From Pempheris klunzingeri (lineage: Eukaryota; Chordata; Actinopteri; Acropomatiformes; Pempheridae), in NCBI RefSeq assembly GCF_042242105.1, contig NC_092012.1, forward strand, positions 20,369,043 to 20,433,042: a stretch of 64,000 bases of DNA, in the 5' to 3' direction. Both the position numbers and the translations under genes were made by a program. Positions 12,345 through 35,985 of this stretch are shown here, piece after piece. The notes beneath the pieces were generated by a model. It did no database searches. It saw only the letters and a list, made by a program, of their open reading frames with translations, and was not told where the DNA came from. Within the stretch, counting starts at the first letter, position 1. Each line of letters opens with the position of its first letter.

Positions 12345-15300
12345 ACGTGATCAAACCGTTTGATACTAAGTTGGCACGGTTTAAACTTCTGGCCATTTTT
12401 GTCTATGAATATGTATTTAATGATCATATGTCATAACAAAGGATGTATTTGTGTGTGTTTGTATCAGGAGCTGAGTGATGACCTGTATCAGAAGATAGCA
12501 GCAGAGCTTAACCTGTCAGAAACAGCTTTCATCACCAGGATCAACCCCTCTGACACTTTCACCACAGGTCGGATCATGTTTCATATAACACCATTACAAA
12601 ATATGTCACTGCTCACAGAAAGCAGTTTAGCTTTGTCAGATTGCAGGCATTTGGTGGTATGTGTGTAAGAGTACTTGTAAAGAAGTCACCCCAGACAGCA
12701 GAACTCACTCTCTGATGATTGCACATGTTCTCATCAAATCAATCAGGCCTCAGATATGTTGTGTACAAATGTCTGGGTCCAGTGTGCACAGTTATTTTCA
12801 TGGTAATATACTCACTCCAACTGGCTTGACATGGTACAGTGTAGAACATGCAAAATCACTTACTGTTTATGCCTTCATTGTAGGATCTGTTTGGATAATC
12901 CAGGCACACTGATGAGAATGAGACAGATTGACTAAATTGATAAAGGAAGGAAGGAACAAAGGTAGAATGGTCATGCTGAGGTCATTTTGCCATTTTGTTT
13001 TCTTGTGTGTGCATAAACTGAAAAGAAAAAAAAACACCTGTCCTCAGCAGTCTGACAGGTAACAATGTTAAACACACAACTAAGACTTGCTTTGTTGAGA
13101 ATGTGAAGAACAAAGCAATGAGCTGTCAGTTAAAAATGCAGCGTTCAGTCGCTGCGTAGCACACAGAGAGGAATGTCAGTGTCATACACACAGCTTAAGA
13201 ATCTCTTGAATGTATGTAAATATGTCACCCACAGTCATGCTGTGGAACTGTGGAACTTCAATAGGTCTCAGGCTTCACATCCTTTGATGAAGAAGTCATA
13301 TGTAGACTACATGTTAAAGTGTTAAAGCATTCATCTGCACTTACAGGATCAAGGTTTTGCCTTAGATGGTTTACACCAACCAATGAAGTGAATCTGTGTG
13401 GTCACGCCACCCTGGCCTCTGCAGCAGTGATGTTCCAGTATAAGAGTGAGACACAAAACAAAACCACACAGACATGAACACACAACAAGGTTAATTCCAG
13501 TTAAAATGCAGTTATTCATTGACTTGACTTGGAACACAGGAAAAGACACACACAGAAAAATCTATAAAGTTGAACAGAGAGGCATTTTCAGACACTTTTG
13601 TCAAGGTTAGTCAGTTACACATAAACACTTTAGTAAATCTATTTCATCAGCTAGCCCGTGAGAATAACATTCTCTGTATGTGCTACATCTGTTAAGAGAA
13701 CATCAACCCCACACTGGTGTTTGAGACCAAGAGTGGAGATCTGGCGGTCACCCAGAGGGGGGAAGGGTACGTCATGGACTTTCCTCTCAACCCACCCACC
13801 CAGGAGGTACAGTATGTGGTCACACAGACACATCAGGACAATGTCGCAGGACCAACATCTCCTACTATAGGTTCAATTATATGTGCCTAGATGTGCATTT
13901 CAATGGACGACACACTGTGTGAAAACATAACCAAAAGTGTGTTGACATAAAACCATATTGTGACAAACATTCAACAAAATACACACAGTTGGTCCTTTCT
14001 CCATCATCTACACTCTATCATGTAAATTAGCATCCCCATTAAGAAACAGGTTTATGAAACCCAGAAACTCGGCCACCATCCTAGAATAGTGTAATTTACT
14101 GCAAAACTGGAGCTGGATTAGAAGAACTCCATCTTCCTGCATTAACGCTGCAAGATTTTCCAAAAGAATATTTGTCAGTAAGCCTTCAAAGTGAAATGCT
14201 ATTATTCTAAAAGCTTTTTCCTTCTGAAACCACTTTTCTCAGGATCCCAATGAGTTCCGAGACATCATCAAGGTCAGTAAGACGTTTTACAGCAGACACC
14301 CACTCTCTCTGCAGTGCATGTTTTATAGTACTGACTCCCGCTTTATGGTCTACACAGCCCTTTTTATGTATAGAGATATGCTAGTGTGATTACTACATTC
14401 TTTTTGTTTTTGTGTGGGTCAGTGCTTAACTGCGTCTCTTCTTCTGCATGTGTGATAAAGGCTGCAGTTGGAAACCACATGATCCAGGATGTTTATCTGA
14501 GCTCCAACACTAAGAAACTGATGGTTCGACTGGCTGACAGCTGTGACAGGTTACAATCACAACACACACCATTAGACAGAAGTATATAGTGTAATAGGTA
14601 CTTATCTTCACACCTACGGAGTCTTCACAGGAGCAACAAGGATGAAGTGCCTCGCTGGAGAGCCACTTATGCACTCACATCTCTGTAAACTTACCAACAG
14701 CCAGCCAGAAACTGAAGCCACTAACCTCTCAAATGCAAGCCTGTCTGTCTCAAGATCACATCCAGGTTCTTAAATCTCTGTCATGTCTTGGTTTGTTTGT
14801 GTGTTTTCTTCAGGGCAGTGCTAACCAGTCTGAAAGTTGACCCTGTTGCTCTTCAGCGCAGTGAGAAGACTGGAAAAGTCAAAGGACTAATCATCACCAT
14901 GAAAGGTAACCAGAGCTAACTGAGCTTCCTTGTTGGGCCGGACCACATGCAGTGGTAAAAAAAACAGTGGTACCACGTGTCTACCAAGTGGTAGACAAGC
15001 AGTCCTCCAAAGAAAACTTGTTTAGTTAGGATTATTAGTTACAGTGCTTGACTTCATGTTGCATCTGTCCATTGGAGGTTTCTGCCTATTAATCAACACA
15101 TATGACATAAATGAACAGTGACGAGACCAGTCTTGTGTGAAAAGTACAAACTATGATCGATCAAAATGCCCCCCCCCCCCTCCTCTTTAAACAGTCTGTG
15201 TCTGCCAACAGGATCCCCAGACTGCCCGCCAGGATATGACTTCTACTCCAGATTCTTTTCTCCATGGAATGGTATCCCTGAGGATCCCGTCACTGGTAGA

Positions 15301-16108: not shown

Positions 16109-16114
16109 TTTATT
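16109..16114 (-). promoter_or_regulatory. dna2: Poly(A) signal AATAAA of dna2
   Basis: TTTATT on the plus strand is AATAAA for the minus-strand gene. It lies about 1.3 kb past the dna2 stop and 98 bp from the pbld signal. The interval 16115-17437 is therefore dna2 3'UTR; I see no coding sequence in it. Confidence 0.55.
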
Positions 16115-17437
16115 CACATTCACAACAGCAAAAATCACAAAATTAAAACAGAACATGTAAACTCAGACGTGGTGTTGAAACATTAAAGGTAGAATCACAG
16201 TAAATTACTCAGCAGTTACATCACAGTTCATCAGCATTAGATTACACTGGCCAAAAAGTGTGAGCAGAATCTTTCTTTCTAAATTGGTGACAACTACAAA
16301 TTGCTAGTTTTAGCTGGTTATCATGATATCAGGTAGTTTTCTTTGTAATTCCCCTGTAATGCTTTAGGTCTGCTTGTCCACTGTGCTTTCAGCAAAGGAA
16401 TTAACTCAAATTGGTTTTACTTTAGCTATTATATTCTAACGTTGTAAACTAAAGTTTATAAAGACAAATGATGGAGATTCCAGTTTGTTGTTTGGCCAGT
16501 GTTCTCCGTTTACTGATTACAATCAGTACTACAGTCTAAAGTTTGTCATCCTTAAGACTGCAGTTAATTTGCAGCTGAGTGACATGAAATATAAATAACT
16601 ACCCATTTGGTCTCCATATTCACATTGCTAATGATTTGGTGCTGTGTGCATAAATGCGTGGTGAAAGGACCTATAATCAAGATTGAAACAGTGAGGCAGA
16701 GGTATCTGAACAAAAATATGTGCATTTATGAAGAGTCTTACTTGAGGTTTGATGCTTAGTACCATAAATCCACCACTGTCAGTTCAACTCAGTATCTCAG
16801 TTTGTGTTTCACAGCATAGGCATTTAAAAAGTGAGGTGCTTACAAAGCTTGTTGAGGTTCAGTCTGAAGATTTAGCTTATGAGATCTTGCGCTCCCCTCC
16901 ACTTAGATCACCATGAATTCTTAAAGGCCAAACTGAATATGCTGAATGGCGCATGGTTGTTAATATTTATCTTATCAACAAACCCACCCTTATTTCCAAG
17001 TGCTTTGCACATTCAAGTCTGCAAAATTATTAAAAGTTAGAAAACTGGCAGCGCCCCACTGAAAGCCATCAGGTGTCAGTCCTGGTGTGTAGTCAGAAAC
17101 ACACACCACCAAATGCTTGTTAGCAGGGATACAGAATAGTCACAGGTGGAGCTCTGACATTAGCAGATAGCAGCTTTTACAGCCTACAGTCCCTGTCTGA
17201 CATACTTCTAGCAGACTTTTTTTCCAAAGATGGACAGGACAGTAATGACTAGGCTTGGAACCGTTGACAGCTGACACCTCTCCACATGAACAGTATTTTC
17301 TGCTCATAGGTTTGATCACAGCTTCTTTACAGATAATTCGGTGCTTCTGCAGATTGTGGAGCTGATCCACATTCACTGGCCGCTCTACTGTAAGAGACAG
17401 GTGACCTGAGACACCATGACAGCTTCATAGACTTCTG

Positions 17438-20400
17438 TCACAGGCGCATGCCCTGTAAGGCGTTGTGGGCAGCAGGCGGGAGCTGAATAATGTGGAGTCA
17501 GGGTTCAGGAAAAAAAACATTGTAGACACAAAACATGTAACATATTGTTATTCAAAACTGCATAGAAGCATTTTTTTAGCCTCAAACACTATTTGTGGGC
17601 AACATTAGTGGCTTGCTGTTCACATGTAAAGCTTAATTCTGTAGGAAGAACTGAAGAATCTAACAAATTTAGAAACACCAGATTTAACAATAAATTACTA
17701 GAATTAACTAACTAACACTAATATTACTCAGAATTAACACTAATATCACTCCTATTAAAGAGTATGAGGTTTTCTATTGCATGAAAATATGCTTCTTGGT
17801 AGCACAGAGCTTTATGTAATGTATTTAAAGGATATCATGTTCTCTTGCTGGAGATGGTTGAGTAGTTTCTCCACTGGTGCGTAGCGTCTTAGCGTTGTGG
17901 CAGAACCCACCATCAGCAGCTTGTGTTTGGCTCTGGTAATGGCCACATTCAGGCGACGCCAGTCCTTCAACAGCTCTCCTAACTATGAATGGAGAAACGG
18001 GACAATCAGGTCGGGTTCCCCCTCATATATTCACTAACTTGTTCGGATGAGACACATGAAAGATGAGCCAAGAAGGGAGATGGGAAGAGAAACACTCACG
18101 TTTCCTTCCTCTGCAGTGCTCCTGACAAAAGAAAAAATGATGAGACTTTTGTCCCGTCCTTGATATCTATCCACTGTGTTCACCTCCACACCGGTGAAAG
18201 CAGAGGACTTCAGCAGAGCAGTTATGCACTTTATCTGCTGTCTGTAGGGGGCAATAACACCTATATCACTGGGCTTACACCCTGCCTGAAAGAAGAAAAA
18301 TAAGTAGGGGTCAGTTTTATTATTTCTCTTTCCATTTTCATTCACTGTTTTAAAACCACTTGATGACTCTAAACGCCTCTTTAAAAGCTCACAGTATTAA
18401 GCTATCAATACATCAGTTGTGTGACAGACGTACCTTTATCAGCAGTGAAAGCAACTTGTGTATGAGAGCAGCCTCGGTGTGGTTGCTTATGCCCCCCTGC
18501 TCCACAGACTCCAGGGCTGGCACCTAAAGGAAGCAGCAGAGAGAAACAAGATGTAGACCAGCACACCTCCACTGTCTCTACTCACGACAGTCAGTCCTAA
18601 AGTGCATTCTTCTTATTGCACATAAACCACTTCCTTCAACAGTTGAAACAGTGGATTTAATTCTTTGACGTTTCTCCAGAGAACAGAGCAGCATGTGTCA
18701 GTTGCCTGAGATAAATATTCCTTTTAAAGTGCATCTTATCTTTAAGACATTAATGTAACTCAGAGCTGACAAGGGGATGTTAGACTATTACAGAACTCAT
18801 CAAGCAATACTGCAGCATCGCCAGCGTGCAAATAACAGACAGCAGGATTGGACAGTGTGAACTAACCAGCAAATCTCCACTTTCCAGTTAAACATTAACA
18901 TCTTTTCTCTTGACTCAACACATTTCAAAAACTTCTACTTGAAGTGAACCATTTATTTTACCAACCATTGAGCAATCTAGGAAGCAAACAGGGTTGCTAG
19001 GCAACAGTGTGTCTTGTATCCAAGCAAGGTCGTGCTGGGGATCAGTCTTGGAGTAGGAACTGAGCTCCGACTGGACAGACAGCAGGAAGGGCAGGGTGAG
19101 CAGGGCCGTGGCCGTCCTCTCTGATCCACACTCCAGCCGGCCCTCATACATCAGGGAGTTACTGAGAGACATTATCTGCCTGAAAGCAGTTAGAAACTGA
19201 CGTGTTAACGCATTGTTAGCAGTTAAGAGCTGAACTGATGAATAAGACGAGATTGCTGAAGCATACAGGGTCGTCTGTGTGTGCAGCTTCACCTGTTCAT
19301 CCGGTACTGTACATTGAGTTGGACCACTGCTTCACTATGGAGCTCGAGTCGCTTAAAGAGACTTTCGTCCATCCCAAGTGACCTGGAGAACGAGACAAAG
19401 AAACTGATGTGGACATTCTTTTAACACTGACTACATGTTGAATGTGACAGTGTTTTACCCTCATGAAGACAAACAATTACAATAACTGTATTTAAGGCAA
19501 TAGCTTTTGTTTTCACCTCCACACACACCCCATTTACACAAAATGCTCACCTAGCTTCCTGATTTTGTACTATTGGTGGCAGTTGTTGGTGATCCCCAAC
19601 CAGGACAAATCTCTTGGCATAGAACAAGGGTCCCAGACAGATCGGCTGGCTGATCTGTGAAGCTTCGTCTATGATGCAGAAATCAAACCTGCGACGAGTG
19701 AAGATGGGATGCTTGATGCCCATACAGGTGGTTCCCACTACCAGCTAGAAAGAGAGAGGGGGTTGGTATTACTTAGTAAGACTTACTTATTTATTTTAAT
19801 GTTCTAAATGTGAAATTATGTGATGCAGGAAATCAGATGTCAAATATTCAGTCCTCACCTCCTTGTTATAAAGCTCCTCCAACTCCGACAGCGTGTGAAC
19901 TCCCTTCTTCCTCTTACTTTCCTCTGTGTAAGGCAGGATGTCTGGATGGACCTGAAGAATGCATCAGAAAACAAAAGAAAAGTCAGAGCATGTCGGGGTG
20001 GGGTGGGGTACTAATAAAAAACAGTTTATTCCATTTTCCACCATATTACTTAAATAATATTATACAGTGATTTGTGCTGTCATAGCTGGGTCTCTGTGCC
20101 ATCACAGAGAGATGTGCACATGTGGGGGCAGAGGCCACCAGATATCGACAGGCCAACAAACAAACGGTTCCAACTCTGAAGTGGCTTTTCATTGAGTCAA
20201 CAAGAATTTACAAACTCAAAATCTCCGTTAACTACAACGGTTGACTATAGTCTTGTGACTGGCTACCAAAGCGGATTTTGCCCCTGAATATCAATAACAT
20301 CAAAAACATAATTACTGTTATGCATAAAGACTAGACGAGTTATACCAAACACCTAACAACAGACATCACACACCTTCTGCCCCTGCCCAAGACGCAGAAA

Positions 20401-23400
20401 GCCAACGCGGAAACGCTTTAGTTTCAGCAGGATGTTGTCAACAGCAGAGTGGGTGTAGCTGGTCAGCAACACACTGAACCCACACGCATGAAGGATGCGA
20501 ACCTGAAAGACAAAGTGGGGAGGAGAAATAGAGCAAAGAGGAGAAGAATAATGGAAGGTGCCACATGGACGAGGAGGGAGAGAAAGGTGGTGGAGAGACG
20601 GTTAGAGTTCTGGTCTCACTTGGGGGTAGATGATGTTGGTTTATGGTTCAGGTTCAGGACTTTACCAGAGTGCAGATGGTTGTGGTTTTGCCTGTGCCCG
20701 GCATGCCAACAATCAGCGTGTAGTCTTTAGATAGCAACACCTTCTTCATGGCCTGCTTCTGAGGTTTGTTGAGACCTACACACACACACACACATACATA
20801 ATTGATTTAAGTATAAAAACTACAACTTCAGCAACAGTGCACAATGTCTGGGGACGTAGAAACAGAAAAGGACAAAAGACAGTAAATGAGACAGACAGAG
20901 TAGAAAAACAGAGCAGAATAGTTTTGTCACCTTTCAGGATGTTGGCTACAGTGTCTTTGGCCTCTCTTGGCAGGACAGAGCTGAGGTTGGAAATAAACTC
21001 TGGAGGACGAAGGTCAATAACCAGCTCCCTCAGACGATCACTGCAAGGACAGACAGTTATATTATAGAACGCCCTTTAACAGGGACTTATTGGTGAAACC
21101 AAGCATAAAATGTGAGACCATTGTTTAAACTGTCACCTAGTAAATCTGATACATTGGATTTACAATGACGTGTGTGCTATGCCATCATATCACAATATTG
21201 CATTTCACTGTACCTACCTGTCCTGACAGTCTTCCATCAGTCTGGAAAGATTAGTGAGGTGAGTGCTGAGGCCCACCACACCTTCATCTCCGTCCAAACG
21301 AAACAACACACCACTGAACTTAGTTAGGTCTCTGTAAAACACATTGAACAGAAAAACAGGTGGAAATCAGGACAGTGACTTGTCCAACCAATTCACTGTC
21401 CTTTAGTTGTCTTCAGGTTGAAATCCTTCAGACAGCAGGTATACATGTTCATTCTCACCTGTCCAGAGTGCAGCTGATCGATGTCCTGCTGACCTCACAA
21501 AGATATCCTGTTGCCAAACCAACCAGACGGCCTTCCTGGTCGCTAACGACGACGCGATCCCCGCTGGCCAAACCGGTGTTGGCCAGACCCTTCTGTGGGA
21601 CCGCACTGCTTCGCTGGAAACGATGGAGGAAAACCCCTTCAGACTGCACAGTCACTGGTCCACTCAGCTGCATGTTCCCCACACAGCTCCCTTTCTTCTC
21701 ACTGGAAACACAGGTCAGAGGAGACGGAGCTAAAGAGCGGTCCAATTTAGGCATTAAAAAAAAGAGCTGGAACATTGAATGAAGGTAAAAGACTGAGTGT
21801 GTACATGCTGAAATCTGAGAGACCAGCCTCTCACCTCTCCTCAGCTGTCTGAAGCCATACATGCTTTCGGCCATTCTTGGCCTCCATGGTGGCAGCCTCA
21901 AGGCAACAGAGGAGCAGCCAATGGGAAAAATAGCTGAGATGTGGTGGGGTCAGGTGGCCCGTCTCCTGCTCCAGGAAGTCACGCACAACATCCTCGTGGA
22001 CTTCTGCAGAGCTGCCATGAACCGCCCTAGGCGAAGGGTGGGGACAGGTTTTGAGAGAAAGTAAAGAGGAAGAAGAGAGGAAATGAAATCTGAAATCTCC
22101 TCAGAAAAGTATTCCTGTAATAACTGCAGCTTCCTGACTCTGAGAGTGAGCTCCCACCTTATGTAGCATTAGGAGGCTCCTAGGAAAAGCTTTTTGAGAC
22201 ATAGGCTTCTCTGTAATAGAGGGCTGAACCAGCAGACCTCGGTGGGCCTTCATTTGATTTTGATTGACACACATAGGGTAACTGACAATATGAGGAGGGA
22301 TGTTTCCTTTCCTTTGCATAGTTTTGGCTAAATCATAGACTGCACCTGCCCTGGAGCTCTGCAGCTCTTTGCTCCTCCCTAGTAGTTAATGAGCCCCACC
22401 TGCCTAGTAGTTACCTGAGACCACATGTAGCTTACTACCTACTCAGGGGGAACAAAAGCCTGAAGCACTCCGGCCCTCCAGGACTAGAACTGAACAGCCC
22501 TAGACTACACAGTGGACTCACTCAAATGGTTTGAGATCATTTGTTTGCTCAGCTTGTTTCTCTGATAACTGAAGATCCAGACCTCCGATGATTAAAATCC
22601 TTCGTCCAGTCAAAAAAGTGTTTAAAATGCCCAAGACCAAAAAACTGACGGCGATTTGAAACAGTAAGAAAGTGGTCAGCTGACAATGTTTTCATATCCA
22701 GCCATCTTGCTGACAGCTGGAGTCCTAGCTAAATGAGACCATTTATTAAAACTCACCATCTCAATACTCCGCACTAATTTTTTTTAGTTTTTTTTTTTTT
22801 AAACTGGGATATGCTTCAAGATAAGTTTCATAAAAAAATCGAACTCTTGAGATTTTCATGGGTGCAAAATTAGTTTAAAAAGTTTACCTCTCATATATCG
22901 CACAGTTTCTCTTCTGAGGACAGTACCGGCAGGTCTGTCTGTCCGTCAAGATGTCAGGAAGTGTGGACAAACGGCTCCGCTCCGGCCCTTTCTCCACACA
23001 GTTGTGAATGTGATGAACCAAGGTGTTCCTCAGCTTCAGCAGCTCTGAGATAAACACAGTTTAGCCATAAAGGTGATGGAGGAGAGGCCACTGAGAAAAA
23101 GTGTTTGTAGATACATTTTGATCTTCCTTTACAGAATTTAAAATATTCTGATTATCATTGATAACAAATGATATTTTGTTCACAGCTGGTGTTGAGCATG
23201 TGTGTGTACTGTACCTCTGCGGTCCATGTGGCTGGGCACTATAGGGTGCATGTTGCCAGTCTTGAGGTAAAGCAGGAAGCCGGCTTCAGGATTGTATCTC
23301 TCTAAGCTCATTAGAGTGTAAAGAATCACCTACACACAGAGAAAACACATGCATACAGGCATCTTGAAAATATTTGCATATAGTAATGTAAGCCTGCCCT

Positions 23401-23421
23401 TTCACCTGATCCCACCAGTCT

Positions 23422-23464
<43 letters not shown>

Positions 23465-26400
23465 TGGCTGAGCACACTGTGATCCACAAACCTGACTGCG
23501 ATGCTCTATCGAGTTTGACTCCTTTCCGGTTTTCAGCTCCAAGGGAACGGTCCTCTCCTCCGAGTTTCTGTGACTACTGTTTCGTGGTCTTTGGATTCGA
23601 ACCCGTGCCGTCACGTCGATTTTCCCTTTCAGACCAAATCTTGGTGACCAGACATTCTCCTCTATATCTGCCAGCTCTGCGACTGTGACAACAGTTGGCG
23701 GGTCCTGACCCTTGCTTGGAGCTCTGCTGTTGCTAGGGATGAAGACAGAGACACATATAATAATATATATACATATATACAGCATCACAAGTCTCACTTT
23801 TAACATCCACGACACTGATTAATATCAGATATGGACACAGTTCAGGTCGACTCCCGCAGAGCGGAAAAAGCTTTCAAACTTTTTTTTTTTAGTAAATCTG
23901 AAGCGCTGAGTGTGTTCGTACATTTTCAGGCTGATGGCTTTTGGTGTTGGGGAGCTGAGGTATTCCTTTGCCCATTGTTCCAGTGAGGGCAGATAATCAT
24001 GCAGTTCCTGCTTCATCTCCTCTTGACTTACACCTAAACTATACCTACAGACACAGAGACAAAACACAAACATAACTGAAAAAGGCAGAGAACATCCACA
24101 CAAACATACTGTGAAAAGCCAATGTAACACATTGTTAAATCTACATGAAACATTCACAAAACTGTCTAACCTCACCACTTACATGTCTCCCAGGTACTGA
24201 GGACTGCACAGGGCCTGGTCAGCCAGCTTAGACAGAGTCTCCAGAGAAAAATCTTTAGCTGTAGCTGCTCTCTGGAAGACCTCATGGACCATGGTGCCAT
24301 TCAGCATTTGCTTGGAGCCACCGTCAAAAGTCTGCAACGTGGCAAAAATAAAAAGTATACTACTGTGTTATTCAAGGTGTATCATAAATAAGATAAACAC
24401 AATGAGATGCACCAACATCAAACTAAGGCCTAAAAGATTATTCAAATCAAAATCTTTCAAAAAACCTCTTGACATTTTAAACCAAACAAAGGCTTGGTGT
24501 AGTATTTACTACAGGGCTATTGCATTGCTTTGCATTGCATTGTGTTAACACCTTTTGTATGTTTTGGGTACTAAACTGACAATACACAATGGTTTATGAG
24601 CGGGACACTTGACTAACATGATATATGGATGCTCATACAAATTGCCTAGAGCAGGAATTTTATCTTTCACCAAGCAGACACAGAGAAGGCTCTCTAACAA
24701 CCACTACAATCACTTCTACTTCCTAAATGTACAATTTCTGCTGATATACACAGCACCTCCTGCAAGCATTTGGGTACCAAAGCATTACATTTTGTTGTCT
24801 CATTATTGTGTACCTTGTGGGTGACATTATTAATATGAAATAACTGTTAGCGTTCACATTGTTCAAAATAAACTGGGCACTTAAAAAATGTGAAAATATA
24901 TAAAAAAAAATTATGTTGGTAATGAACTGTATTACCTTGAACATGTCTCCCAGCACGGCTCGCCTCATGCAGCGGATGGAGCTAGAGATGCTGGTACCTG
25001 AGACGAGGCTATCAGGTAGTAAAACCAGAAAGCCCTGTTCCCGGTCCACCAGCCAGGATCCACCATCAGAGCGGCCCTCCAGATGTACCACATCACCGCG
25101 ACAAACAGGCGTCATCTCCCTGGAAACACCCATGGAGCAATCATTTCATACTCATAAAGACCTATTGTATGAGTAAAGTTATATAAATACATCCAAACTA
25201 GATGTGATGATCATCACAGAAGGTCAGTTTATCAGACACACAAACCAAATAAATACAGAGGAATGAAAAGCTGATCAGTTAACTGAGTATTTGCACCGAT
25301 TCGTACTATGAAGGTGAAAAGTCAGAGCTACTTTCACGACTGCATCTGGGCATTGAAGGGAAGAATGTGATGTACATTATGATGAAAATGAGAAATTAAA
25401 CAACAGTGGGATCAGCAACACACGCAGCATTACCATCCATCTTTCAGCAGACACGTCTCAGTGGGATGTAGAGATTTGGAGCATGTGATAGTCAGTGTTT
25501 TTCGGCCTGGCCTCTCCTCCACATCTAAAACCCAGTAGCGGTTGTTTAGTCCTGCAGAAAGGATCACGTGGTCTGGCACCTTACTGTGGGGACAAAGAGG
25601 ACCTCAGTCATCTGCATGAATCACTTCTAAAAATCAGAATGACTTTTTTCACCAGGAAAAAACATACAGGTCTTCATGTCATTAGCAACTTCCAAGTCAC
25701 AGTCTCACTTCAACTGTGAGGCTAAATCAGCCCATAGAGGATGGACAGTGACATAAAAGCTTTTCAGCAGCTTAGCGGTCACTAAGTTAAGAGTTTGAAC
25801 CCACATATACACATGCACCATGTGCTCTGACTTCTGTTTCATCTTTCTCTCTCCATTATTGTGATGAGCATTAATTGAGAATAACTGAACCTAACCAAAG
25901 TCTTCAACGTTCTCCAAACCTGTGTTCTCGTGTTTCTCACCGGGGTTTTTTGGATTTATCTTCTGTGACGAGATCCATCTGCTCTGCAAACCAGCTCTCG
26001 TCCAGCACCTCTTGCACAGGACATTCTGATGTCATTCCTGCATGTTTTTTTTCAGTTGTTGTTTTTCATGTTTAAAAAAAAAAAAAGGTCACAAAATAAA
26101 CAAAATCAAGTTAGCAGGGAATAAAAACAAACTATACACTAGCAAAGGAATTTGGACCACAGCTGTGTGTATTCTGTATGAACGGGTTATTGTCACTGTA
26201 TGACACTCAGTATGCAGTCATGTGTGATTTGATAATATCGTTAAATAGGTGACACCTTGTTTTAATGCAGGATCGTCACACAGACAGTTTGCTATGCATT
26301 TACGAGGGGTGGAGCATTGTGCATCATCAGTTGTTTTTTTTGTAAAAGATGGCAAACAAAATTCATGAGTCTACCTCCAGCTTGCTCCTGATCTGACGAT

Positions 26401-28230
26401 GCCACATTGCCTCCGTCTCCATTCGTTGATGTTATTGCTGCTGTCGTAGCTCCATTCTTGTTAAAGGCTCCCCCCTTTGCACTTCTCTGCGCTACACGTG
26501 TGGTTGTTTGTGCACTAGGTCTGTGCCCAGGAGCAGTAAGAGGGAGAGTGTCTTTGTCCAGACAAGTGTGTGCGTTTCCATCGGCCTGCGCTTCACTTGC
26601 CTCCTGCTCTGTTATCACAGTAAAATCAGAAGTGTTTTCATCTCTCTCTTCCTGACTTTTTGTCTGTTCCCCGAAAGAGTGGTGAGAAACAGATTTCAGT
26701 GACATCATTTTGTTTCTGCTGTCATTGAGGACCACTTCATTATCTCTGCTGTGACCCTCTGATTGGCCACAGGAGAAATTGGATGTCTTCAGAGGGCCAA
26801 TTATTACAGGCTTTGTTACTTTCAGGTTGCTACCTGAAGGGCTAGGTGCAGTTCTTTGTGCAGGTGAACTGGCAGTTCTTGGTCTCTTGGCATTGTGAGA
26901 CTTTTGGGGAGGGCTGAAGAGTCTTTTTAGGGAGCCAGAGCTTCCCTGTTCCCTCTTAGTTTTTCCTCCCTCCTCAGTCATAACTCTCTGTACACTCTGT
27001 CCTTTGGAGCGGGGACTTCGACAGATGGGGGACAGTTGGCCGAGCCTCTCTAGGCTCACCGCGTCTCTGCTGGGCTGAGGGCTCAGCTGACCTGGCCCTC
27101 TTGAGGAAGAAGAAGGAGCAAGTCTGATCTGACTCTTGGGGGTTTCAGGAACAGAGAGGAGAAGATCTGGTGAGGAGGGCAAGAGGTTTTCAAGGTCCCC
27201 GAGGATACTCCTCTTTAAGGGGGAACAGGGTCTGAATGTAGAGGTTTCTCCATCTCTGATCTGAGGTCCAGTGCCGATGACTGATAATTTTGTGGTGGAT
27301 GACAAGTCCTAAAATAAACCCAGTCCAGTGAGTATTTAATAAATAATTTACAAAAGTTTAGTGGCAAATTGCTCATGTAAATTAAAGAGATATGCAATTA
27401 GTACAGACTATGAGGACAATACAAACAGAACAGATGAAAGACACAAGTGAAGAAATGACAGACACGTATGCACAAATAAGTTAAATAAAAAACTTCAAGA
27501 TGCGTGTAATGACGCACAAAGGAATTAGACGTGGTAGATACTTTACTGATGAATTTTGTTATCCTAAAATAGTTAAACATGTAGTATTTTCCTCATCCTA
27601 AAGGTTGTATTACGACAATTTACAGTTAAGAGCTGTACTTTTCTGGATCTGAACGTATCTGATTGTTTTTAATGAGAGAGAAGACCAGCTATGCCTCCGT
27701 CTGCCTGACCATTATTATGCATAAAAGAAATAGACATAGACTATCAAAATGTTCATCTGTCTAAAAGATCAATAATGGCACTAAGTAGTAATATCAGGAT
27801 GCCATGATGACAGTCCTGTCGAGAAGGAAAGACAGAGAGAAGCACGTAAGCTTACCTTGTGGTGGTTCTGAGAGGAGAAGAAGGATAAGATGTTGTTCGG
27901 CCCTGCTGGTGCCTGGAAGAAAACATTTACAATCAACCCACTAGTGTTTGCTGTCTCTTGTTTCATATGGCAGCACATGTAGCAGCTTAGACTTTAGTCT
28001 GATCCACAATCTCAGCTGTGCTGTTCACATGTGACTGTATGGACTTGTTTGTTTCTGATATGCTACGTTGTTGACCAGAGAATTAAAGGAGTGCAGAGGA
28101 GTGAAGCAGCCAGACACACAGCTGATGTAACAAACATAATCACATAATAAATAAAACCAGGTGCCTCGTTAACTCCAGCTAATTGACCTCCTGAACTTAC
28201 CTTGGGTTTCTTCAGTTTGGTCCTGTTCAT
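17438..28230 (-). CDS. dna2: DNA replication ATP-dependent helicase/nuclease DNA2 (25 exons, 1400 aa)
   Basis: Exons (5'->3'): 28230-28201, 27912-27856, 27308-26375, 26037-25941, 25583-25434, 25119-24936, 24331-24183, 24044-23922, 23732-23492, 23329-23215, 23044-22888, 22026-21835, 21701-21459, 21331-21218, 21040-20931, 20775-20666, 20502-20374, 19951-19859, 19744-19551, 19382-19293, 19179-18966, 18523-18434, 18285-18100, 17982-17836, 17491-17438; all phases agree. DNA2 trims Okazaki flaps and resects broken ends. The PD-(D/E)XK nuclease is marked by GKID (D614) and LELKTGK (E640, K642). Its Fe-S cysteines are C473, C732, C735 and C741, with the C-x2-C-x5-C spacing of the family. The SF1 helicase shows Walker [11 protein letters not shown] (K995), DEASQ 1102-1106, [13 protein letters not shown] and [10 protein letters not shown] ~340-aa disordered N-terminal extension, mostly one exon, is absent from human DNA2. 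The last intron is U12-type AT-AC. Confidence 0.95.
17492..17835 (-). other. dna2: U12-type AT-AC intron (last intron of dna2, 344 nt)
   Basis: The exon ending GAGAACATG is followed directly by ATATCCTTT, a perfect U12 AT-AC donor, and no usable GT donor lies nearby. At the other end TTCCTGAAC (17511-17503) is one base off the U12 branch consensus TTCCTTAAC. Twelve nt past the branch A the intron ends in CCAC. Joining ATG to ATTATTCAGCTCCCG gives ENM-IIQLPP, which lines up with the human C-terminus EKL-IIDLPS (from memory). Confidence 0.9.
23424..23463. repeat. (GT)n microsatellite in dna2 intron 9
   Basis: A GT tract of about 40 bp lies 29 bp below the exon 9 donor. On the dna2 sense strand it reads (CA)n, a known class of intronic splicing-enhancer tract when close to a donor. 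Confidence 0.9.
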
Positions 28231-30230: not shown

Positions 30231-30861
30231 GAAGTTTAATTGAATTGAATAAATTTAAACGTCCCATTTCCTTTCTAATTCTTTTCCATAAATCCTTAGC
30301 TTCATCCCCTCTTCAGTTCTTTGACAGTTTGCATCTTTTCTACAATCACAACCCCACTCACCACCTCATCAATTGCTGCTTTTACTGTCCTGGTTGCACC
30401 CCATGAGGTGTTTCCAACCAGATACTGATTTAGGTCCATACATGAGTTTTTCTTCCAAACAGAAAATCCTTTAAGCAGTTGAAAATACTCCCACCAACAC
30501 CCATCATGTGCAACTTAATTAACAGTCCCTCATTCTACATTATGTCATGGGGTGTATCAGTATCAAAAACATTGCATTTGCTGTCTTTTTATTCACCTGG
30601 GGCTTTTTATTTCAATCTCTATTTTTCTCACTGAGTCCATTGTATTCCTTCCTTTCCTCAGACCACTCTGATAACTTGCCAGCATTCCTCTCTTTTCAAG
30701 CTCATATACACTCTCTGTTATCATCTTTTCCATTACCTTGCATATATTAGATGTTAGTGCTATTGGTGTGTTGTCAGTCAAGAGGTTGGATGGATCCTTG
30801 CTAGATTTTCTTACAGAATCACTACTGTGTCTTATGCACTTGTTAATCTTCCCTCTCACAC

Positions 30862-31020
30862 TCTATTAGAAACGTGTGGTAATAAAGAATGCCTCTTCCC
30901 CTTGATGCCTAAGCATAACATGGTGTATCTGTATCTATAGGAGAGGTCAGACGGAATTTCATTCTACTTTGCTGTATGATGACAATAAATCTGATTCTGA
31001 TTCTGATTCTGATTCTGATC
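30862..31020 (+). mobile_element. Short 5'-truncated retroelement end with (TGATTC)n tail
   Basis: The segment ends in GATGACAATAAATCTGATTC followed by further TGATTC units. A short hexamer-repeat tail after an AATAAA is typical of fish LINE/SINE 3' ends. It interrupts the minus-strand LINE frame between its linker (ending SPG at 31021) and its RT segment. Confidence 0.6.
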
Positions 31021-33793: not shown

Positions 33794-35985
33794 TCAAGTC
33801 TCCAGATTCTCTCCTGCGTGGGTCTTCATATGAATGATTAAGTGAGAGCGACGAATGAATCTTTTTCCACAAGCGGTGCAGCCGAACGGCCTCTCCCCGG
33901 AATGAGTCTTCATGTGGCGCGTCAGATTAGACTGAGCGCTGAATTTCATGTTACATACAGTGCAAATGTAGGGTTTCTCACCAGTGTGAATTATTGTGTG
34001 CTTGATCAGATCGGCTTTCTCCCTAAAACTTTTACCACAGTCAGCACAGCTGTGCGGTTTCTCTCCCGTGTGGATTCGTATGTGGGCGTTCATGTTTCCA
34101 ACTTGTGTGAACCCTCTGCCACAGAAGGTGCACGTGTACGGTTTCTGTCCAGAGTGAGAGTTCATGTGAGTCTGCAGGTAGGAGCGCTGGATGAAGCTTT
34201 TACCACAGACGTTGCAGCTGTGAGGTTTTTCTCCCGTGTGCGTCTTCATGTGTCGGGTCAGAATGGATTTAATTCTGAAATTCTTGTTGCAAACGCTGCA
34301 GGTGTACGGCCTGTCTGCCGTCTCACCAGCTTGCTGTGGTTTCTTCCTGTTTATACCCGAGTGATACCTTCCACCGTCTCTCCATTCATCGTCACTCCCT
34401 TCACTCATCTGACAGTCACTGGTCGGCTCTGATGTAACACAGCCTTCCTTACTGGGCTCTGATTTCAACTGTTCAGATGAGCCACTGGACAAACCGCCTC
34501 CACTATTTTCAACCTCTTGGTTTTCATGCAGGAACTGTCTCCCATCTTCTACGCTTCTTTGCACGTAAATGATATTGAACATAGAGTCCTTGGTATCAGC
34601 CTCCTCCTGCGTTTCACCTGTCGGAGTGGTCCATAGTTCCTCGTCCTGTTCCTCTTTAATCTGTGGGGGCTCTGGGTCATCCTCACACGGGTCAGTCTCA
34701 CAGCGCTCAGAGGGAGTGCCCCCTTCCTGGACAGAGAGCTGCTGCTGGTGGGCTGTACGGCATCACACACACAGAAAAGAGATTCAGGCTTTAGTTAGAT
34801 CAAATACAAATGATGATTTGTAAATATTTAGCTGAGAGCAAGAGCATTCACAGTTCTTTACGCAAGACGACAGGTGCAGTGACACTTGTGTTTCAATGGG
34901 TCTGCTTTGTGATGAGGTCTTTGCAAATGAAAGTGAAATTCATTACAAATGCAATGTAATCTAATCAAACTTTGCACTCATTTTGTTACAACCCTTAGTA
35001 TCATGAAATACACATGTTTTGGGGTCATTATGATGATTATTGGGGTCATTATGTCCGTATGGCAGTGGAGAAGATGGCAGATAAGTGTAAAAATACAGTG
35101 TAAATAAGGAAACATATAAAACAGTGTAAAATAAGTGATAACTGTGTTTACTTGTGCTCACAAGCATTTAAAATACAGGGCATCACAGGCACATTCAATC
35201 AAATAGACTACAGCCAAATTATGCACAATATACATTTAGAAAGACAGTGATTAGAACAGAAATTCTGCATTATAATACTGCATGTGCAAATTAGCTCCAT
35301 TTACAACTGACAGCTTAGGTAATTATTTTAATTTCCACTTCCTGCTGCCCAGTGTGTGAAGGAGAGGTGAGCAGACGCTGTGCAGTCTGCTGTGACCAGT
35401 GGTGGAAGAAGAGCTCACATCGTTTCCTTCAGTACAAGTAGCACTATGGTGTAGAAGTAAACTTTTAACTCAATAAAAGATCAGCACCACGTATACTAAA
35501 AGTACTCCCCTGAGTACAAGAACTTCTAGAATGACCTAATTCAGAATCATCATCAGATTGCAGTGATCGGTGCATTAATGTGGACATCTCTTTAATGTCT
35601 CACCTGCTAAAGGTGGAGCTCCTTTGTGGACGTTAACCCTTAATGTAAAATAATGAGATTGTATTGTATTAACTAATAATACTGTATTAGTTGGGTTTGT
35701 ATTAATGATCTGAATCGAACTAATGCTGCAGTGGAGTAAATAAAGCAGTGCAGTATAAACACAAAGGAGGTGAAGGTGTTACTTGCCTCTGGCTTAGACA
35801 GACATCATAACACCATAATGTGTGAGGGCAGACATGCCAGAGCAGTCACTGGCTCATTAAAGTCACCTACTGTGCAGCAGCCTGTTGTTCTGCAGGAGCA
35901 GGGTGCAGCTCAAGCTCTGTAGTGTGTGAACACCTGCACGTGTTAGGAGGCACCTGCTCCACATGGCCTCATCACCTCCACCCTG

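Follow-up and report, generated by a model that had tools for sequence, protein, structure and literature searches.

Locus and gene context

The window analyzed here is a 64-kb stretch of Pempheris klunzingeri DNA. Its minus strand carries a gene whose translated exons matched mouse DNA2 (PDB) with E values of 6e-202 for the helicase half and 3e-96 for the N-terminal half. On the basis of this homology across the nuclease and helicase parts, the gene was assigned as the predicted gene for the DNA2 helicase/nuclease (dna2). Mapping of its exons extended upstream to ~26005. Directly upstream of the mapped exons, a 338-residue open frame without a Pfam family was found (26295–27308, minus strand), which may extend dna2 at its N-terminus in a way not shared by mouse. 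On the plus strand, an open frame of the PhzC-PhzF family (pbld-like) occupied 13265–13477, so this gene and dna2 converge. The gene order and the compact introns suggest a fish origin.

The remainder of the window was surveyed in less depth. Minus-strand frames at ~2–10.5 kb presumably belong to an hnrnph-like gene, and two tested pieces of these frames contained no Pfam family. Another minus-strand open frame (33797–34762) encoded several C2H2 zinc fingers. A weak match to reverse transcriptase (RVT_1; 30596–30862, minus strand; E 0.0024, under the curated cut-off) is perhaps a retroelement remnant. No Rfam family reached the gathering threshold in the whole window.

The features at the 3′ end of dna2 are as follows.

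17836..17982, minus strand: penultimate coding exon of dna2, translation ending ...LNHLQQENM, exon end in phase 0
17827..17835, minus strand: putative U12-type AT-AC 5′ splice site, ATATCCTTT, 9/9 matches to RTATCCTTT
17492..17835, minus strand: putative U12-type AT-AC intron of 344 nt, last coding intron of dna2 (from the letters, the splice-aware alignment, and the terminus-blind scan)
17503..17511, minus strand: putative branch-site motif, TTCCTGAAC, 8/9 matches to TTCCTTRAC
17492..17493, minus strand: predicted 3′ splice site AC (from the letters and the terminus-blind scan)
17438..17491, minus strand: final coding part of dna2, 17 residues and a TGA stop (from the letters and the mouse DNA2 alignment)
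17812..17814, minus strand: in-frame TAA reached on intron retention (first base 17814)

Behind the dna2 stop, in the presumed 3′ UTR, lies a 94-residue open frame running from stop to stop (17140–17424, minus strand). It contained no Pfam family, and a coding function was dropped.

Splice signals of the last coding intron

The consensus sequences of U12-type introns are RTATCCTTT at the donor and TTCCTTRAC at the branch site. The original prediction had placed a perfect AT-AC donor behind a dna2 exon ending in ATG, and both its coordinates and its letters agreed with the sequence: the exon ends AACATG up to 17836, and the intron begins ATATCCTTTAAATACATTACATAAAG from 17835, where the donor ATATCCTTT matches at all nine positions. 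At the other end, the intron closes with TTCCTGAACCCTGACTCCAC at 17492 and the exon resumes with ATTATTCAGCTCCCGCC (in longer form, TTTTTTTTCCTGAACCCTGACTCCAC followed by ATTATTCAGCTCCCG). The near-consensus branch site claimed 12 nt ahead of the AC was also confirmed, the distance holding from the second A of the motif (17504); the sole mismatch to the consensus is a G in place of T at position 6. Between the branch site and the exon, the sequence CCTGACTCCAC had no polypyrimidine tract by eye, and a run of T lay directly upstream of the branch site.

The predicted join is in phase 0, ATG onto ATT, and the spliced message would read ATG-ATTATTCAG. Reading through the intron adds ISFKYIT before the TAA. 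The GT nearest ahead of this stop is at 17874, and no GT occurs from there to the stop.

Protein homology at the junction

To locate the junction by protein homology, we aligned 1004 residues of mouse DNA2 (lacking residues 1–11, 409–412, 486–519, and >1053 in 5eax numbering) with positions 17300–26200 of the window by splice-aware dynamic programming, using a single self-chosen set of penalties and gap costs in which AT-AC was penalized 8 points above GT-AG. When AT-AC was allowed, the total score was 2380 and the final intron was AT-AC at 17835–17492; the GT-AG-only model scored 2366, and its last intron began at 17805, past the in-frame TAA, and ended at the acceptor 17483. Additionally permitting GC-AG and AT-AG left the result unaltered. 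The peptide joined across the AT-AC intron aligned with mouse DNA2 (PDB) over 62 of its 66 residues (E 1.9e-18) and reached position 1053 of the 1056-residue chain, where the mouse side ends ...AEQLILDLPSREHESLS, thereby bearing out the claim that this join restores the matching C-terminus.

The alignment mapped 22 dna2 introns, comprising 21 GT-AG introns and the AT-AC intron at 17835–17492. One GT-AG intron (21655–21536) was taken as an artefact of the missing query residues 486–519. The 21 GT donors matched RTATCCTTT at 2–7 of nine positions, against nine of nine in the last intron, and none of them was a full U12 donor. The donor at 22887 (GTAAACTTT, minus strand), which opens an 861-nt intron, matched at seven of nine positions and lacks the TCC core; this intron was taken as U2-type from its donor sequence.

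We also performed an ungapped homology scan without regard to intron termini, in which junctions started 20 codons into the exon, acceptors lay 60–3000 nt away, and, for free termini, the best six acceptors were retained per junction. The top score was 196, reached equally at five offsets; 17835–17492 was the only one of these with AT-AC, GT-AG, GC-AG, or AT-AG ends. Read-through scored 145. Among models with specified termini, the best AT-AG model reached 186 (17838–17249, with the donor ATGATATCC, which is no U12 donor), the best GC-AG model 166, and the best GT-AG model 153, with its donor at 17805 beyond the TAA. The mouse-tail match past the junction scored 27 points, the highest within 3 kb downstream (next, 21), and ranked second over both strands of the window, behind an unrelated place with 28 points. 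The next acceptor, at 17245–17242, scored 192 against 196, albeit without usable termini. Because this rival was just 4 points lower, homology alone was not decisive for the 3′ end, and the U12 signals settle the choice between acceptors that homology leaves close.

Relatives of the spliced tail outside eukaryotes were sought by pattern matching. Viral contigs yielded 16 pattern-matching stretches, none of which was confirmed as a relative, and prokaryote genomes yielded 203, of which seven loci were confirmed, all bacterial. In tblastn, six of the seven matched only query residues 1–43, ahead of the junction at residue 49. The other (L007) reached residue 62 with 43% identity and 11 gap columns, and it was not accepted as an orthologous tail; none of the seven was used.

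Chance occurrence of the signals

The frequencies of the U12 signals in the window were compared with those in shuffled sequences. RTATCCTTT matched once (shuffle mean, 1.09), the 8-base donor ATATCCTT occurred three times (shuffle mean, 2.00), and branch-like sites (no more than one mismatch) numbered 26, against 36 expected. We then defined a combined signal as a donor followed, 60–3000 nt downstream, by a branch site (at most one mismatch) 11–13 nt from an AC. With ATATCCTTT as the donor, this signal occurred once, at the dna2 junction (shuffle mean, 0.16; at least one in 12 of 100 shuffles); with the 8-base donor, it likewise occurred once (shuffle mean, 0.48; at least one in 29 of 100). 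By themselves, the U12 signals are thus only mildly unusual in 64 kb. The strong point is that they fall on the junction picked by terminus-blind protein homology, which raises them above chance.

Class assignment and alternative readings

From the combination of splice signals and protein homology, the last coding intron of dna2 is very probably U12-type and of the AT-AC subtype. The same donor could instead be joined to an AG 9 nt downstream (17483, TTCAG/CTCCCG), either as an AT-AG U12 intron or as a less-used alternative to the AC acceptor. That AG is in frame and is the acceptor of the GT-AG-only alignment, and mistaken selection of U12 3′ splice sites has been described (PMC3584512). However, its use would lose the residues IIQ, which follow the AT-AC junction and pair with ILD of mouse DNA2, and would place the branch site 21 nt away; AT-AG combinations also appear to be disfavoured (PMC3584512), and we regard this choice as very unlikely.

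It is extremely unlikely that the intron is kept and that the P. klunzingeri protein ends in ISFKYIT, the mouse-like match downstream being a relic or a product of chance. Although the frame is open as far as the TAA, the tail homology alone is modest, and the signals alone were present in 12 of 100 shuffled windows, the donor coincides with the homology-defined junction, and the best mouse-tail match within 3 kb begins right after the AC, 12 nt past the U12 branch motif. A conventional GT-AG (U2) intron with other boundaries would be of the class found in 21 of 22 mapped introns, the artefact included, but the last GT before the stop, at 17874, lies upstream of the final 13 residues that align to mouse, and the best ungapped GT-AG model (153 versus 196) needs the donor past the TAA; such an intron is vanishingly improbable. 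A twintron was dropped, as no GT donor lies between 17874 and the stop.

Relation to known U12-type introns

The U12-type AT-AC intron of dna2 shares its donor, branch site, and termini with AT-AC U12 introns in general. U12 introns are defined by the donor and branch site, have no distinct polypyrimidine tract ahead of the 3′ splice site, and may use either of two As at the branch site (PMC3584512). The branch site, at 12 nt from the end of the intron, falls within the 11–13 nt reported as optimal (PMC3584512). In zebrafish, 22% of U12 introns are AT-AC, and phase 0, the phase of the dna2 intron, is under-represented among U12 introns (PMC7367187). Host genes of U12 introns include DNA replication and repair genes, and loss or conversion of these introns is rare in vertebrates (PMC3584512).

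According to a 2023 review, DNA2 is entered in U12DB as having a U12-type intron, and a dependence of DNA2 splicing on the minor spliceosome has been suggested there (PMC10676203). The passage concerned does not name the number, subtype, or species of the listed intron; given that no other of the 22 introns mapped here has a full U12 donor, the last intron of dna2 and the listed one are probably the same. In searches of openly licensed papers that paired DNA2 with minor splicing, we found no other report of a U12 intron in DNA2, and the parts of the mouse DNA2 structure report drawn on here (PMC4716839) do not address the last residues. The intron is therefore a feature of a known kind, in a gene from which a U12-type intron had been reported before; its novelty is modest, and it is useful for annotation. 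A dependence on the minor spliceosome would accordingly be less surprising than first rated, and the present intron supports the printed suggestion.

For annotation, gene prediction restricted to GT-AG introns would probably assign dna2 a wrong C-terminus here, as the GT-AG-only model crosses the TAA. Where the original prediction speaks of loss of the 17-residue tail, retention of the intron would put ISFKYIT in its place.

Predicted processing and consequences of retention

The minor spliceosome most likely removes the last intron of dna2, and this removal is most likely needed for the proper tail of the helicase, as judged from the sequence. The donor ATATCCTTT would be recognized by U11 snRNA, and the branch site TTCCTGAAC by U12 snRNA (PMC3584512). 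The donor would then pass to U6atac snRNA, which takes part in recognizing U12-type donors. Joining of ATG to ATT in phase 0 would then produce the conserved C-terminal end of DNA2.

Retention would stop translation 7 codons into the intron, in what would then be the terminal coding exon. With no coding-exon junction further down to mark the message, decay may not be triggered, 3′ UTR introns permitting, and a protein with an alternate tail is possible. Between 17835 and 15900 on the minus strand, the sole AATAAA is at 16114 and there is no ATTAAA; thus, neither signal lies inside the intron. Retention could conceivably act as a regulated switch, in which, for want of a coding-exon junction behind the stop, a drop in minor-spliceosome activity would lead to a stable ISFKYIT-tailed DNA2 with altered function and so couple minor splicing to replication and repair, but we consider this unlikely. 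The suggested link between DNA2 and the minor spliceosome bears on Rothmund-Thomson-like disease, for which both DNA2 and the minor-spliceosome factor CRIPT have been discussed (PMC10676203).
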